Below, piece after piece: positions 57,920-63,510 of a DNA stretch of 64,000 nucleotides. This DNA comes from Sporosarcina ureae (GTDB lineage Bacteria > Bacillota > Bacilli > Bacillales_A > Planococcaceae): contig NZ_CP015109.1 in NCBI RefSeq assembly GCF_002082015.1, positions 1,200,001 to 1,264,000 of the forward strand. Reading direction: 5' to 3'. How positions within the stretch are numbered: the stretch's first letter is position 1; every line of letters begins with the position of its first letter. The notes under the pieces are model-generated. The model was not told the DNA's origin. It worked only from the letters and a program-made list of their open reading frames with translations, and searched no databases. A program made the position numbers and the translations under genes.

Positions 57920-58027
57920 TTCATTACCTCCTAATGATGTAGTGATTGTTTTATATACCATATCGTAAAGATGTTCTGACGACAATTCAAAGCTTTTTGC
58001 CATCCGCAATAAAATTCCTGTTTTCTA

Positions 58028-58048
58028 ATACTTTTCAGTGAAAAGTAT
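58028..58048. promoter_or_regulatory. Inverted repeat upstream of the polyamine operon -10
   Basis: Perfect nine-base arms ATACTTTTC / GAAAAGTAT with three-base spacer AGT, 22 bases before the TATAAT, where a -35 would normally be. Operator-like. Confidence 0.4.
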
Positions 58049-58070
58049 ATATTTTTTATTCTTTTTCCTT

Positions 58071-58090
58071 TATAATGAAATCAATTTCAT
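58071..58090 (+). promoter_or_regulatory. Polyamine operon -10 and adjoining inverted repeat
   Basis: TATAAT (58071-58076) overlaps ATGAAATCAATTTCAT (58075-58090), a perfect 7-2-7 inverted repeat over the predicted start site. The -35 is poor, so an activator or another sigma factor may take part. Confidence 0.45.
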
Positions 58091-58117
58091 AAGTTTTTTA
58101 ATTTAGGAAGAGTACCT

Positions 58118-58153
58118 GTGAGCATCATGCCAATCCAATCACCTGTTATGTAA
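58118..58153 (+). CDS. Candidate 11-codon leader peptide of the polyamine operon
   Basis: GTG 58118 to TAA 58151-58153, encoding MSIMPIQSPVM. AGGAAG at 58105-58110 is exactly seven bases upstream, an ideal site. The coding sequence contains CCAATCCAATC (58130-58140), which can pair with the 3' arm of the terminator at 58244-58257. A 9-bp hairpin directly follows the stop. The peptide has two prolines near its end. Coding is inferred from site and context only. Confidence 0.45.
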   Translation: MSIMPIQSPVM

Positions 58154-58155
58154 TG

Positions 58156-58176
58156 GAATAGAGACACTCTCTATTC
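58156..58176 (+). promoter_or_regulatory. Leader hairpin after the leader ORF
   Basis: Nine-base perfect stem GAATAGAGA / TCTCTATTC with a three-base loop, starting two bases after the leader-ORF stop; possible pause hairpin. Confidence 0.5.
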
Positions 58177-58200
58177 TTATATCAACAAGCGAAACAGAGT

Positions 58201-58263
58201 AAAGGTCCCTCTCCAATCTGTCATGTTGGTATTATTTCATGTGGATTGGAGAGGGACTTTTTT
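58201..58263 (+). terminator. Attenuator-type terminator in the speD leader
   Basis: Fourteen-base perfect stem GTCCCTCTCCAATC (58205-58218) / GATTGGAGAGGGAC (58244-58257), 25-base loop, then six T. It lies 40 bases upstream of speD and no complete gene precedes it on this strand after the predicted promoter, so it would stop operon transcription. TGGATTGG (58242-58249) can alternatively pair with CCAATCCA (58130-58137). Confidence 0.75.
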
Positions 58264-58303
58264 ATGCGTACAAGACCTTACACATTTTAGATAGAAAGGA
58301 TGG

Positions 58304-59128
58304 ATGTTACGGTTGGAAAATAAGCTGAAGCTCTACGGCTTTAACAACCTCACCAAAACTCTTAGCTTCAACATTTACGATGTAAGCTATGCAAAAAGTA
58401 GAAGAGAGCAAAGTGAGTATATCGCCTATATAGATGAGCAATACAATTCGGAACGTTTAAGGAAAATTCTCTACGATGTCACTGACATGATTGGGGCTCA
58501 TGTATTGAATGTCAGTAAACAAGACTACGATCCGCAAGGTGCCAGTGTAACCTTGATGATTTCAGAGGAGAAATTCCCTGCATCACAAATTGACCCTTCT
58601 TGCAATCAAGGCGCGATTCCTATCATGCCCGATAAAGACTCCGTCGTCAGTCATTTAGACAAAAGCCACGTGACCGTCCATACGTATCCCGAGTATCATC
58701 CCGATAACTCCATTGCCACATTTCGTGTAGATATAGACGTGTCGACGTGTGGAGAGATTTCTCCATTGAACGCCCTCGACTACCTGATTGGAAGCTTTGA
58801 TTCGGATATCATTACCGCAGATTATCGCGTACGTGGATTTACACGTTCAGTCGACGGAAAAAAACTCTTTATGGATCATGCGATCACATCAATCCAAGAC
58901 TTCATTGACCAAAAAACATTGCAAATGTATGATGCGATCGATGTGAACGTTTACCAATCAAATATCTTCCATACGAAATTACTCATTAAAGAGATTGATT
59001 TGCAAGATTACTTATTCAACAAAGACGTTTCAGAAATACCGCCGAAAGAACGCCTTCTAATCTCTCATAATCTCCGCAAAGAGATGATTGAAATCTACAG
59101 CGGTTCCAATGTCTATGAAAGTGAGTGA
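58304..59128 (+). CDS. speD: S-adenosylmethionine decarboxylase, large bacterial (E. coli) type
   Basis: 274 residues from ATG 58304; AAAGGA is only three bases upstream, so TTG 58313 is also possible. Close in length and sequence to E. coli SpeD: KLKLYGFNNLTKTLSF at the N terminus, DPQGASVTLMIS, and the self-cleavage site LDK-SHVTVHTYPE, where Ser121 becomes the pyruvoyl group. It makes decarboxylated SAM, the aminopropyl donor for SpeE. B. subtilis has the short type, so this large type is unusual for the phylum. First gene of the operon. Confidence 0.95.
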   Translation: MLRLENKLKLYGFNNLTKTLSFNIYDVSYAKSRREQSEYIAYIDEQYNSERLRKILYDVTDMIGAHVLNVSKQDYDPQGASVTLMISEEKFPASQIDPSCNQGAIPIMPDKDSVVSHLDKSHVTVHTYPEYHPDNSIATFRVDIDVSTCGEISPLNALDYLIGSFDSDIITADYRVRGFTRSVDGKKLFMDHAITSIQDFIDQKTLQMYDAIDVNVYQSNIFHTKLLIKEIDLQDYLFNKDVSEIPPKERLLISHNLRKEMIEIYSGSNVYESE

Positions 59129-60593
59129 GAAGAGACCATTGAAATTACCACAACATCGCGTTCCAATTATGGAAGCATTGCAGCAATACCAAGAAGCACG
59201 TGTCGTTCCCTTTGATGTTCCAGGACACAAACATGGCCGTGGCAATAAAGAACTTGCAGATTTCCTCGGAGAGACTTGCTTGCATCATGACGTGAATTCC
59301 ATGAAACCTCTCGATAATTTATGTCACCCTGTCTCTGTCATACATGAAGCAGAAGAGTTGGCGGCGGATGCGTTTGGCGCGAAGCACGCCTTCTTGCTCG
59401 TAAACGGGACGACCTCTGCCGTACAAGCTATGGTCATGACCGCTTGCAAAGCAGGAGATAAGATTATCATGCCACGAAACGTTCACCGTAGCGCCATTAA
59501 CGCCTTGATCTTAAGTGGAGCTATTCCTATCTACGTGAATCCTGGAGTACAAGAAGACCTTGGCATTCCACTCGGCATGGCAGTAGATGAAGTAAAGAAA
59601 GCAATCGTGGATCACCCTGATGCCAAAGCAATTCTTATTAATAATCCAACTTATTACGGTATCTGCTCGAATCTGCAAGCCATTACTGATCTAGCACACG
59701 CACACGGTATGCTCGTGTTAGTGGATGAAGCACATGGCACACATTTTTATTTTAATGACAAATTGCCTGCTTCCGCGATGTCCGTCGGTGCGGATATGGC
59801 ATCCATTAGTATGCATAAATCAGGTGGATCTTTAACACAAAGTTCATTTTTATTAATTAATAATGAGGTAAGTGAAGGCTATACGCGACAAGTTATTAAC
59901 CTGACGCAGACTACGAGCGGATCTTATCTATTGATGTCGTCATTGGATATTTCACGTAAAAATCTCGCATTATACGGTCAGGAAATCTTCGATAAAGTGA
60001 TTAAAATGGCGCAATATACTCGCGATGAAGTCAATCAGATCGGTGGCTATTATGCTTATTCCAAAGAGTTGATCAACGGCGATACAGTCTTTGATTTTGA
60101 TGAGTCCAAACTGTCGATTCACACACGCCAAATGGGATTGGCCGGCATTGAAGTGTATGATATTTTACGTGATGAATACGATATCCAAATCGAGTTCGGA
60201 GACGTAGCGAATATCCTCGCCTATATTTCAGTCGGAGACCGCACGTTGGATCTTGAACGATTGGTTGCGGCACTAGCGGAAATCAATCGTCGTTATAAAA
60301 AAGATCCTAGTTCTTTATTCGACCATGAATATATCAATCCCGAAATTGTTCAGTCTCCTCAACAGGCATTTTACGCGGATAAGGAGATAGTATTGCTAGC
60401 TGAATCTGCTGGACGAGTCGCAAGTGAATTCGTCATGTGCTATCCACCTGGCATCCCTATTGTGGCACCTGGAGAACGAATCACAAATGAAATAATTGAA
60501 TATATCGACTACTGCAAAGACAAAGGTTGTTTCCTAACTGGTACCGAAGATTCGAACGTGAATTATATTAACGTAGTAAAGGAGGACGTTTGA
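59109..60593 (+). CDS. speA: PLP-dependent arginine decarboxylase (SpeA, aspartate-aminotransferase fold)
   Basis: 494 residues if read from ATG 59109, overlapping speD; ATG 59115 or TTG 59139 (just past the speD stop) are alternatives, since no start has a strong site. FDVPGHKHGRG near the N terminus, VDEAHGTHF, the PLP lysine Lys237 in SMHKSGGSLTQSS and the C-terminal MCYPPGIPIVAPGE are typical of the B. subtilis SpeA/CadA-like family. Arginine to agmatine is most likely, given the agmatinase two genes on; lysine or ornithine are the alternatives. Confidence 0.88.
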   Translation: MSMKVSEKRPLKLPQHRVPIMEALQQYQEARVVPFDVPGHKHGRGNKELADFLGETCLHHDVNSMKPLDNLCHPVSVIHEAEELAADAFGAKHAFLLVNGTTSAVQAMVMTACKAGDKIIMPRNVHRSAINALILSGAIPIYVNPGVQEDLGIPLGMAVDEVKKAIVDHPDAKAILINNPTYYGICSNLQAITDLAHAHGMLVLVDEAHGTHFYFNDKLPASAMSVGADMASISMHKSGGSLTQSSFLLINNEVSEGYTRQVINLTQTTSGSYLLMSSLDISRKNLALYGQEIFDKVIKMAQYTRDEVNQIGGYYAYSKELINGDTVFDFDESKLSIHTRQMGLAGIEVYDILRDEYDIQIEFGDVANILAYISVGDRTLDLERLVAALAEINRRYKKDPSSLFDHEYINPEIVQSPQQAFYADKEIVLLAESAGRVASEFVMCYPPGIPIVAPGERITNEIIEYIDYCKDKGCFLTGTEDSNVNYINVVKEDV

Positions 60594-61444
60594 TGAACCT
60601 ATGGTTTACTGAAGATCATTCACCTCATACCCGCTTTTCCTTTCGCGTTGAAGAACATTTATATACTGCGACGAGTGAATTCCAGAAAATCGATGTCTTT
60701 CAAACGACAGAGTTCGGTAGAATTTTGGCATTAGATGGCTATGTCATGGTGACGGAGAAAGACGAATTCATTTATCACGATATGATTGTTCACGTGCCAA
60801 TGGCCACCAATCCTTGCATCCAGAAGGTATTGGTTATCGGTGCAGGTGATGGTGGCACTGTACGCGAATTGACGCGCTACCCTTCGATCAAACAAATCGA
60901 TATGGTGGAGATTGATGAGCAGGTTGTGAAAGTATGCCAAAAGTTTTTACCGCAAACCGCAGCCCAACTGACGGATCCGCGCGTTACACTCTACTTTGAG
61001 GACGGTCTGAAATTCGTCCGTCAGCAAGAGAATGCCTATGATTTGATTATTGTTGACTCCACCGATCCATTCGGGCCGGGTGAAGGTCTCTTTACGAAAG
61101 AATTTTATGGCAATTGCTATAAAGCTTTGAACGAACAAGGCATTCTTGTGAACCAGCATGAAAGTCCCTTCTACGCTGAAGACGCGCGCGGTATGCAGCG
61201 AGCACATAAAAGTATTATGGGGTTCTTCCCCGTTTCTAAAGTCTATCAAGCACATATTCCAACCTATCCATCGGGGCACTGGCTGTTCGGATTGGCTTCT
61301 AAGAAATATGACCCGATAGAAGATTTGGATGCCGATGCTTGGAATGCACTTGGTTTACAAACAAAATACTATAATACAAAACTGCATGTCGGCTCGTTCG
61401 CCTTGCCGAATTATGTTAAGGAGTTACTGATTCATGCTAAATAA
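60593..61444 (+). CDS. speE: Spermidine synthase (aminopropyltransferase)
   Basis: 283 residues from ATG 60593, seven bases after AAAGGAGG and sharing one base with the speA stop. N-terminal beta domain, SAM-type site VLVIGAGDGGTVREL near residue 80, VEIDEQVV, and catalytic DSTDPFGPGEGLF near 155. It transfers the aminopropyl group from decarboxylated SAM to putrescine. Confidence 0.95.
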   Translation: MNLWFTEDHSPHTRFSFRVEEHLYTATSEFQKIDVFQTTEFGRILALDGYVMVTEKDEFIYHDMIVHVPMATNPCIQKVLVIGAGDGGTVRELTRYPSIKQIDMVEIDEQVVKVCQKFLPQTAAQLTDPRVTLYFEDGLKFVRQQENAYDLIIVDSTDPFGPGEGLFTKEFYGNCYKALNEQGILVNQHESPFYAEDARGMQRAHKSIMGFFPVSKVYQAHIPTYPSGHWLFGLASKKYDPIEDLDADAWNALGLQTKYYNTKLHVGSFALPNYVKELLIHAK

Positions 61445-62318
61445 AAATATAGAAACATTTTTAGGTTTCGATGCAGAATACGAGAATTCTTCATTCGTAA
61501 TTTTCGGTGCTCCTTTCGATTCCACAACCTCTTTTCGTCCTGGCACGCGCTTTGCTAGTAAAGTGATGCGCAGTGAATCATTCGGTCTCGAGACATACAG
61601 TCCTTATCAAGAAGCCGATTTAACGGATTACTCATTATTCGACGGAGGCGATCTGGAACTGAGTTTTGGTAATACGGAGCGTGCGCTGGAGCAAATTGAA
61701 GAGTTCACTTCACTTGTTCTGAAAGACGGAAAAATCCCTTGCATGATTGGCGGCGAACATTTAGTGACCCTGGGCGCTGTACGTGCTGTTGCGAAAAAGT
61801 ATCCAGACCTGCATGTTCTTCAATTCGATGCACATACCGATTTGCGCGAAGATTATTTGGATCAGCATCTGTCCCACGCCACCGTCATACGCAGAATTTG
61901 GGACTTGCTCGGCGATAATAAAATCTTTCAATACGGCATTCGTTCCGGTGATCGTCCTGAATTTGAATGGGCGGCTCAGCAGCATGTGTTCATGAATAAA
62001 TTTAATTTTGATGGTCTTGAAGATACGGTTGAAAAACTACAAGGTAAACCCGTCTACTTGACGATTGATCTTGATGTACTGGATCCTTCCGTATTCCCTG
62101 GAACCGGTACACCGGAAGCGGGTGGCGTGAGCTTTATTGAATTGCTAAAAGCGATTTTGACAGTCAGCGGTTTGAATATCGTTGCCTGTGATATTAATGA
62201 GCTGTCCCCTGTCTATGATCAAAGCGGCGTATCGACCGCCGTTGCCTGTAAAGTGTTGCGTGAATTAACAATTGCAATAAATAAAAATAACGAAAATGGT
62301 GGTGTCTTTAATGAGTAA
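61434..62318 (+). CDS. speB: Agmatinase
   Basis: 294 residues; AAGGAG precedes the ATG inside speE (11-base overlap). Ureohydrolase manganese motifs: GGEHLVTLG, QFDAHTDLRE and TIDLDVLDPSVFPGTGTPE. It splits agmatine to putrescine and urea. Confidence 0.95.
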   Translation: MLNKNIETFLGFDAEYENSSFVIFGAPFDSTTSFRPGTRFASKVMRSESFGLETYSPYQEADLTDYSLFDGGDLELSFGNTERALEQIEEFTSLVLKDGKIPCMIGGEHLVTLGAVRAVAKKYPDLHVLQFDAHTDLREDYLDQHLSHATVIRRIWDLLGDNKIFQYGIRSGDRPEFEWAAQQHVFMNKFNFDGLEDTVEKLQGKPVYLTIDLDVLDPSVFPGTGTPEAGGVSFIELLKAILTVSGLNIVACDINELSPVYDQSGVSTAVACKVLRELTIAINKNNENGGVFNE

Positions 62319-63510
62319 AGCATTAATTATTGGAGCAGGCGGCGTAGCAAGTGTCGTCGCGCATAAGTGTTGTGAGGTACCAGATGTATTTGAAGAAATC
62401 TGTATCGCAAGTCGTACAAAGTCTAAATGTGATGCATTGAAAGAAAAGCTGGATGGCGGACGCACTAAAATCCAAACTGCACAAGTTGACGCGGATAACG
62501 TGCCCGAACTCGTTGCGTTAATCAATGAATTCAAACCGGACATCGTCATTAATGTCGCATTGCCTTATCAGGATTTGACAATCATGGATGCATGTCTCGA
62601 AACGAAAGTAGACTATCTGGATACTGCCAACTACGAGCCGCTTGATACAGCGAAATTCGAATATAAATGGCAGTGGGCTTATAAAGAAAAGTTTGAAGAA
62701 GCAGGTATTACAGCATTGCTCGGTAGCGGTTTCGACCCTGGCGTAACGGGTGTGTTCTCCGCTTACGCATTGAAGCATTACTTCGATGAAATCCATACGA
62801 TTGATATCGTTGATGCGAACGCAGGCGACCATGGCTATCCATTTGCCACTAACTTTAACCCAGAAATAAACATCCGTGAAATCACAGCAAACGGACGCTA
62901 CTACGAAAACGGAGAGTTCATCGAAACAGAGCCTCTTGAAGTGAAACGCGTCTATGACTTGCCTGAAATCGGACCGAAAGATGTCTACTTGCTATACCAT
63001 GAGGAACTTGAATCTTTAGCGAAAAATATTACCGGTGTAAATAAAATCCGTTTCTGGATGACGTTCTCCGAAAAGTATTTAATGCATCTACGTGTACTTG
63101 AAAATGTGGGTATGACGTCCATCGAACCGATTGAATTCGAAGGTCAACAAATCGTTCCGCTACAATTCCTAAAAGCTGTACTACCGGACCCCGCTTCTCT
63201 TGGACCGCGTACGAAAGGAAAAACGAATATCGGTTGTATCTACCAAGGTACGAAAGACGGCGAGCCCAAAACGTATTACGTTTACAATATTTGTGATCAC
63301 CAGGAGTGCTATCGTGAAGTAGGATCACAAGCTATTTCCTATACAACAGGTGTACCGGCTATGATCGGTGCGATGATGATGTTAACAGGCAAGTGGAAAA
63401 AGCCAGGCGTCTTCAATATTGAAGAGTTCGATCCAGATCCATTCATGGATGCGCTGAATGAGTATGGTTTACCTTGGCACGAAGACTTCAATCCTACTTT
63501 GATAGACTGA
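62311..63510 (+). CDS. Carboxy(nor)spermidine dehydrogenase/synthase (saccharopine dehydrogenase-like)
   Basis: 399 residues from ATG 62311, overlapping speB by eight bases; GGTGG lies upstream. Rossmann NADPH motif ALIIGAGGVASVVAHKC, ASRTKSKCDAL, and GLGSGFDPGVTG-like LLGSGFDPGVTGVFSAYA near residue 135 are conserved in the Lys9-like carboxyspermidine dehydrogenases. The family condenses aspartate semialdehyde with putrescine (or diaminopropane) to carboxyspermidine. The next gene is the matching decarboxylase, which supports the role. Confidence 0.9.
   Translation: MSKALIIGAGGVASVVAHKCCEVPDVFEEICIASRTKSKCDALKEKLDGGRTKIQTAQVDADNVPELVALINEFKPDIVINVALPYQDLTIMDACLETKVDYLDTANYEPLDTAKFEYKWQWAYKEKFEEAGITALLGSGFDPGVTGVFSAYALKHYFDEIHTIDIVDANAGDHGYPFATNFNPEINIREITANGRYYENGEFIETEPLEVKRVYDLPEIGPKDVYLLYHEELESLAKNITGVNKIRFWMTFSEKYLMHLRVLENVGMTSIEPIEFEGQQIVPLQFLKAVLPDPASLGPRTKGKTNIGCIYQGTKDGEPKTYYVYNICDHQECYREVGSQAISYTTGVPAMIGAMMMLTGKWKKPGVFNIEEFDPDPFMDALNEYGLPWHEDFNPTLID

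Follow-up and report, generated by a model that had tools for sequence, protein, structure and literature searches.

Genetic context and anatomy of the speD leader

As summarized in Table 1, the window (i.e., the whole 64 kb stretch of DNA analyzed herein) harbors an operon headed by speD, and the NCBIfam score of this gene bore out the AdoMet decarboxylase assignment of the initial annotation. Among the collinear genes that follow, the Orn/Lys/Arg decarboxylase-like gene gave best NCBIfam scores far under the cut-offs, and the carboxynorspermidine synthase-like gene gave 426.4 bits against a cut-off of 800. One further collinear gene lies after the latter, beyond the window. The operon (58304-63510) seems to carry two spermidine routes, namely SpeD/SpeE and that of the carboxynorspermidine synthase-like gene; as a guess, a 378-aa gene located after the latter (L177:122-1258) may encode the matching decarboxylase.

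Upstream of speD, direct reading of the window verified all the sequence features that had been named before, i.e., a -10 hexamer, a Shine-Dalgarno (SD) sequence, an 11-codon GTG open reading frame (ORF), a hairpin, and a terminator. No recognizable -35 hexamer was found for the TATAAT sequence, where a promoter scan accepted no two-hexamer site, and the scan listed no promoter-like site on the plus strand from 58016 to 58303. The predicted hairpin at the end of the ORF, designated HP1, comprises a basal stem, in which AUGUAA (58148-58153) pairs with UUAUAU (58177-58182), and an apical stem (58156-58164 with 58168-58176). Further downstream, a putative antiterminator hairpin, designated AT, would consist of an outer stem formed by ACAAGC (58185-58190) and GTTGGT (58225-58230; GTTTGT instead in 12/14 of the leader-bearing species described below) and an inner stem formed by ACAGA (58194-58198) and TCTGT (58217-58221). 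The predicted intrinsic terminator has its arms at 58205-58218 and 58244-58257, extra CAUG pairs (58222-58225/58238-58241), and a T6 tract (58258-58263). When the folding of the leader was compared with that of 200 shuffled sequences, none was as low (z = -5.19).

Two short repeats were also noticed in the leader: CTGTYATGT occurs at 58143-58151 and 58218-58226, and AGAGTA at 58109-58114 and 58196-58201. The CTGTY copies may compete with each other for pairing with AACAG. AUCACCU (58138-58144) equals part of what we take to be the 3' end of the 16S rRNA, possibly by chance; the 16-base form of this presumed 3' end had one occurrence in the genome.

Table 1. Features of the speD leader and the downstream operon (window coordinates; counts refer to the 14 leader-bearing species)
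Feature	Coordinates	Strand	Evidence and conservation
-10 hexamer TATAAT	58071..58076	+	direct read; TATAAT in 12/14, TATACT in 2
Block A, AU-rich 5' segment including the leader SD	58083..58113	+	27/31 columns invariant
Leader SD AGGAAG	58105-58110	+	AGGAAG in 12/14, AGAAAG in 2
Leader ORF, 11 codons, GTG 58118 to TAA 58153, MSIMPIQSPVM (putatively translated)	58118..58153	+	
Block B, ATCACCTGTTATGTAATGGA, ORF codons 8-11 plus stop; predicted anti-antiterminator strand	58138..58157	+	18/20 columns invariant
HP1 hairpin (predicted)	58148..58182	+	basal strands invariant in 14/14; apical tip folds in 14/14
AT, antiterminator hairpin (predicted)	58185..58230	+	inner stem in 14/14 minimum-energy folds; 58186-58230, 40/45 columns invariant
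Intrinsic terminator (predicted)	58205..58263	+	direct read; folding, -28.2 to -35.2 kcal/mol in 14 species
speD, S-adenosylmethionine decarboxylase, first gene of the operon	58304..59128	+	TIGR03331, 419.7 bits (cut-off 255.8)
Collinear genes after speD: Orn/Lys/Arg decarboxylase-like, speE, agmatinase (speB), carboxynorspermidine synthase-like	59142..63510	+	

Distribution of the leader

A covariance model search located the leader, which is ~190 nt long, in 14 of the 261 family genomes, at one place each and adjoining speD (E < 1e-42). The model (R1) has an automatic consensus structure that differs from the structure argued here, and it was used only for finding homologues; in several of the 14 genomes, it also gave a second weak match on the opposite strand at the same place. 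A 32-base antiterminator pattern allowing up to 3 mismatches hit the same 14/261 genomes, once each, and the control gave no hit. These genomes constitute one Sporosarcina clade (L001-L014), in which L001 is the genome of the window and L002 its sister. The order-level searches included no genomes beyond the 261 of the family search, and hence did not widen the sample.

Within the genus, speD was present in 46 of 68 genomes, and the leader was not found in 32 of these 46; the genus thereby offers a natural comparison between 32 speD-bearing genomes without the leader and 14 with it. In a 48-row speD tree, the 14 leader species occupied one side of a branch with an SH-aLRT support of 100, and thus a single origin suffices for their leaders. 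Two weak model matches were obtained in other genera (G180 and G199; E = 0.0041 and 0.0045, respectively), and G022 gave seven equal weak matches (E = 0.0147), perhaps representing a repeated element. Neither the leader in plasmids nor the antiterminator pattern in viral contigs gave any match. A weak short match elsewhere in the genome of the window (G000:C1:2756261-2756294) was rejected as a second leader copy, since, by eye, it seems to belong to a coding region.

In most of the leaderless species, a TTGAC-like/TATAAT promoter seems, by eye, to precede the speD SD, and in G013, the one leaderless genome in which gene order was viewed (by eye), speD, the decarboxylase gene, and speE are in the same order. 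When 126 regions upstream of speD were scanned for terminators, just 4 of the 14 known ones were recovered, and nothing was therefore concluded from the scan. Four leaderless Sporosarcina (L115-L118) share a different long hairpin between the promoter and speD (AATTTCATAATT .. AATTATGAAAT around GGGACCCTC..GAGGGTCC), which starts with AATTTCATAA, the same as in block A.

Sequence conservation

In the 14-row alignment, blocks A and B and the stretch 58186-58230 were invariant in 87-90% of their columns (Table 1), as compared with 5/24 columns for the spacer plus ORF codons 1-7 and 5/18 for the hairpin tip. As a yardstick, only 7 of the 79 fourfold degenerate sites of speD (those with the first two bases constant) were invariant in the same species, and L008-L014 matched the window at 40-47% of the speD fourfold sites. 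Being near-frozen against this yardstick, the three stretches are under strong selection.

This conservation extended to bases with no assigned pair, since the GUAAAGG loop, AUCACCUG, and block A were as invariant as the paired bases. Judging from the pair probabilities, block A, AUCACCUG, and the loop bases have no supportable pairing role in spite of their near-invariance, which keeps recognition by a ligand or a protein alive as a rival explanation. A pairing between block A (CAUAA..UAGG) and block B (CCUGUUAUG), which looked promising to the eye and, for some species, in duplex folds, was dropped because its pair probability was 0.00-0.03 in the 14 species. A GUGA/UCAC pairing across the start codon was likewise rejected, as it was broken, by eye, in 3/14 species, namely those with changed starts.

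The leader ORF and its peptide

The start codon of the leader ORF was kept in 13/14 species (11 GTG, 1 ATG, and 1 TTG), the exception being GCG in L006. The ORF was intact in 12/14, as L008 additionally carries TGA at codon 7, and both L006 and L008 kept the RNA blocks despite the broken ORF. The distance from the SD to the start codon was 5-9 nt, and the alignment contained no gap from just past the start codon to the stop codon; in L003, a gap of two columns falls on the start codon. The retention of the start codon despite the variable SD spacing, together with the gapless ORF, favors translation of the ORF as judged from sequence.

The encoded peptide shows little constraint. Across the 14 species, codons 2-7 differed mostly by amino acid changes (by eye), and codons 8-11 read S-P-[V/A]-M-stop in 14/14 (downstream of the in-frame TGA in L008). 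The wobble base of codons 8-10 was identical in 14/14 species, and the lone variation, GTT/GCT, changes the amino acid. These frozen wobble sites point to selection on the RNA. Part of the conservation of block B is accounted for by two complementarities of motif-located strands: AUGUAA, the last codon plus stop, was complementary to the UUAUAU of the HP1 basal stem in 14/14, and CUGYU was complementary to AACAG, fully in 12/14. No repeated regulatory codons or codon runs were found in the 14 leader ORFs; within codons 8-11, the fixed residues are Ser, Pro, and Met. The polyamine-sensing stall peptide proposed in the initial annotation was thus unsupported, since codons 2-7 drift, 2/14 ORFs are broken, and the conservation in codons 8-11 lies at the nucleotide level, extending to the wobble sites.

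Predicted folding of the leader RNA

The alternative pairing that had originally been proposed as the switch, between CCAATCCA (58130-58137 by direct reading) and TGGATTGG in the terminator 3' arm, turned out not to be conserved. It was complete, with 8 contiguous pairs, in 5/14 species and reached 8 pairs with a bulge in 1 more; in the other 8 species, it amounted to -5.6 to -8.3 kcal/mol as against -22.7 to -30.2 kcal/mol for the terminator arms of the 14. Alignment of the relatives upheld the conservation of the SD (exact in 12/14) and the terminator, and upheld neither peptide codons 2-7 nor this pairing.

A different partner of the terminator 5' arm was suggested by the folding of an RNA that begins at 58138 and stops immediately ahead of the terminator 3' arm, in which the AT inner stem ACAGA/UCUGU belonged to the minimum-energy fold of every species and the outer stem ACAAGC/GUUUGU to those of most of the 14. 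In L001 and L002, the outer stem adopted another register, which in L001 pairs AUAUCAAC with GUUGGUAU (a shift to 58179-58186 with 58225-58232 in the window species). As the 3' strand of AT doubles as the apex of the 5' arm of the terminator, AT and the terminator would be mutually exclusive. The terminator 5' arm was near-invariant and its 3' arm drifted largely via G-U pairs, as expected if the 5' arm has two partners. Two terminator pairs were altered on both sides, and the apical tip of HP1 also carried substituted pairs: L007, for example, has G-U in place of U-A, and L008-L010 have G-C in place of A-U. These changes were tallied by script on motif-located strands, and the tally is not a covariation statistic. 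AT and the HP1 basal stem gave no covariation because both hardly vary.

With regard to stability, the terminator (Table 1) was more stable than the AT hairpin (-8.0 to -14.9 kcal/mol) in 14/14 species, with a gap of about 15-27 kcal/mol within each species, and thus any control must be kinetic. In the models, AT was predicted for most species even when no ribosome was present (mean probability of the inner pairs, 0.32-0.99), and the probability of the HP1 basal stem ranged from 0.02 to 0.96, being weak in L010 and L012 (0.02-0.03). Upon emergence of the AT 3' strand, the mean ensemble gain was -4.5 kcal/mol for the free leader and -8.2 kcal/mol when a ribosome occupied the stop codon of the leader, modeled as RNA beginning 12 nt past the stop. 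The ribosome strengthened AT in 14/14 models by 0.1-6.4 kcal/mol, the effect being nil in L002 (0.1). Block B opposed AT more strongly (mean gain -6.2 kcal/mol) than its shuffled versions did (-8.3 kcal/mol), 1-14 of 60 shuffles per species being as inhibitory as the real sequence. The upstream RNA was complementary to the terminator apex to no greater degree than shuffled upstream RNA (40-177 of 200 as good). In most species, the AT hairpin region did fold better than shuffled versions of it, 0-28 of 200 shuffles being as low in 12 species, and 51 and 67 in L001 and L002, respectively; as the 14 species are related, such folding tests are not independent of one another.

Proposed mechanism and its alternatives

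On the basis of these predictions, we propose that the conserved leader acts through four segments. Segment 1 would be the ORF end CCUGYUAUGUAA, segment 2 UUAUAU..ACAAGC.AACAGA, segment 3 the apex of the terminator 5' arm (UCUGUCAUGUUUGU), and segment 4 the terminator 3' arm. The 2:3 pairing (the antiterminator, 58185-58198 with 58217-58230) is predicted to exclude the 3:4 pairing (the terminator), as in trp-type attenuators, and the 1:2 pairing to weaken 2:3, with the opposing strand (58143-58153) provided by the last codons and the stop codon of the ORF. A ribosome near the ORF end would then likely favor the antiterminator, leading to expression of the operon. Among the readings considered, this one is the best supported, quite plausible though still short of probable. 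In its favor are the confinement of the leader to one clade, the invariance of the blocks, the AT inner stem in all 14 folds, the modeled effects of the ribosome and of block B, and the retained start codon. Counting against it are the dominance of the terminator at equilibrium, the folding of AT in ribosome-free models, the variable HP1 basal stem, the nil ribosome effect in L002, the upstream complementarity that shuffles equal, the lack of covariation in AT and the HP1 basal stem, and the absence of repeated regulatory codons. As a candidate feedback, termination at the leader stop codon might become slow or arrested under scarce polyamines, which would be sensible; apart from the operon itself, no pointer to a polyamine signal was found. 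What stands of the original proposal is a conserved leader, comprising a terminator and a short ORF, ahead of the AdoMet decarboxylase operon, together with competing folds on which a ribosome could act; the pairing named therein and the sensing peptide do not stand. If the proposed mechanism is true, the ORF would be retained for the position of the ribosome and not for the peptide, and the leader would represent a second, unrelated RNA device for Gram-positive polyamine genes beside the spermidine riboswitch. No published speD leader of such a kind appeared among the literature titles and abstract beginnings searched, a scope lying mostly outside subscription papers.

The persistence of the RNA blocks in L006 and L008, in which the ORF is broken, is evidence against this mechanism and at the same time favors an orphan riboswitch or a protein-binding antiterminator, in which blocks A and B and AT would form a recognition fold with the ORF incidental or secondary, and in which a ligand (e.g., a polyamine, dcSAM, or MTA) or an RNA-binding protein would set the balance between antiterminator and terminator. 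The invariance of unpaired bases (the GUAAAGG loop, AUCACCUG, and block A) fits such a fold as well, and the Gram-positives for which a spermidine riboswitch on polyamine genes has been described include Sporosarcina sp. D27 (PMC10853860). We nevertheless regard this explanation as rather unlikely, given that no Rfam match reached the gathering level in the window, that the spread of the leader is very narrow (14/261 family genomes), and that the start codon was retained in 13/14 species despite adjacent indels. The two ideas could also be combined in a lineage-specific RNA polyamine sensor reading both translation and product, with the ORF end as the anti-antiterminator and the AT core binding a polyamine or a factor, which we consider improbable.

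An arrest peptide, in which nascent MSIMPIQSPVM senses a polyamine and stalls the ribosome at the stop codon, would account for the S-P-[V/A]-M-stop found in 14/14 species (in L008, behind the TGA), and arrest at termination has been described for TnaC and SpeFL (PMC8429421). The free amino acid changes at codons 2-7 and the two broken ORFs, however, argue against it, as does the fixation of the conserved codons at wobble sites in species where only 7/79 speD sites are fixed, and we judge it very improbable. An unregulated, constitutive or factor-dependent attenuation would be in line with the energetic dominance of the terminator in every species and with the folding of AT both with and without a ribosome; the terminator would then do no more than fix the fraction of read-through, with Nus factors or pausing perhaps contributing. 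A plain terminator, however, needs no three near-invariant blocks over ~150 nt upstream of its 3' arm, which leaves this explanation a low probability.

Comparison with known leader systems

In attenuators of the trp/his type, a short ORF runs into the first of four serially complementary segments, an antiterminator competes with an intrinsic terminator, and the position of the ribosome decides between them. The speD leader resembles these in that an ORF with an SD and a start codon precedes an intrinsic terminator (by sequence alone, the ORF in 12/14 and the terminator in 14/14) that is faced by a predicted antiterminator, that the ORF ends inside segment 1, and that the ribosome position is predicted to be decisive. 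In the models, the opposition of the strand under the ORF to AT is partial, and AT also folds when the ribosome is absent. It differs in lacking a run of regulatory codons and in having an antiterminator near-frozen in sequence, and since the base of segment 1 is where its ORF stops, segment 2 would be freed by a ribosome standing on the stop codon instead of on internal codons. By prediction, the speD leader works as trp-type attenuators do, but with no regulatory codons.

SpeFL precedes a polyamine decarboxylase gene, and both SpeFL and TnaC involve Rho. MAGDIS is encoded by a tiny upstream ORF before animal AdoMet decarboxylase and exerts eukaryotic translational control; the speD leader is alike in having a tiny ORF ahead of the gene for the same enzyme activity, and no MAGDIS-like hexapeptide was found in the 14 leader peptides. 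With SpeFL and TnaC, as described in PMC8429421, the speD leader shares an ORF whose stop codon lies at the decisive place. It differs from them in that its peptide is unconserved beyond S-P-[V/A]-M and that an intrinsic terminator takes the place of Rho. No amino acid selection on the peptide was seen in the 14 leaders, and, judged by this comparison, the leader does not specify a conserved sensing peptide as SpeFL and TnaC do. The leader of Salmonella speF provides an example of leader control of a polyamine decarboxylase (PMC6386406), a likeness by description only, concerning another gene in another phylum.

The statement of the initial annotation that no known riboswitch family is recognized was confirmed in that no Rfam match reached the gathering score in the 64 kb window, the 16 matches listed up to E 10 within 58000-58330 all being far below their gathering scores. 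No SAM-I (RF00162) match was found in the window, nor up to E 10 within 58000-58330, and none of the 8 SAM-I matches in the same genome lay at the speD leader. By model match, therefore, the leader is not a SAM-I or spermidine riboswitch. The spermidine riboswitch is described as a SAM-I variant that likewise controls transcription termination of Gram-positive polyamine genes, including those of a Sporosarcina (PMC10853860); the speD leader differs from it in lacking a SAM-I match. SAM-I matches below the cut-off (34-39 bits) were noticed at G024:C43:37865-37985, G001:C33:7918-8040, and G062:C1:2962721-2962839, and these three genomes of the genus are without a match to this speD, their SAM-I matches being candidate spermidine-type variants.
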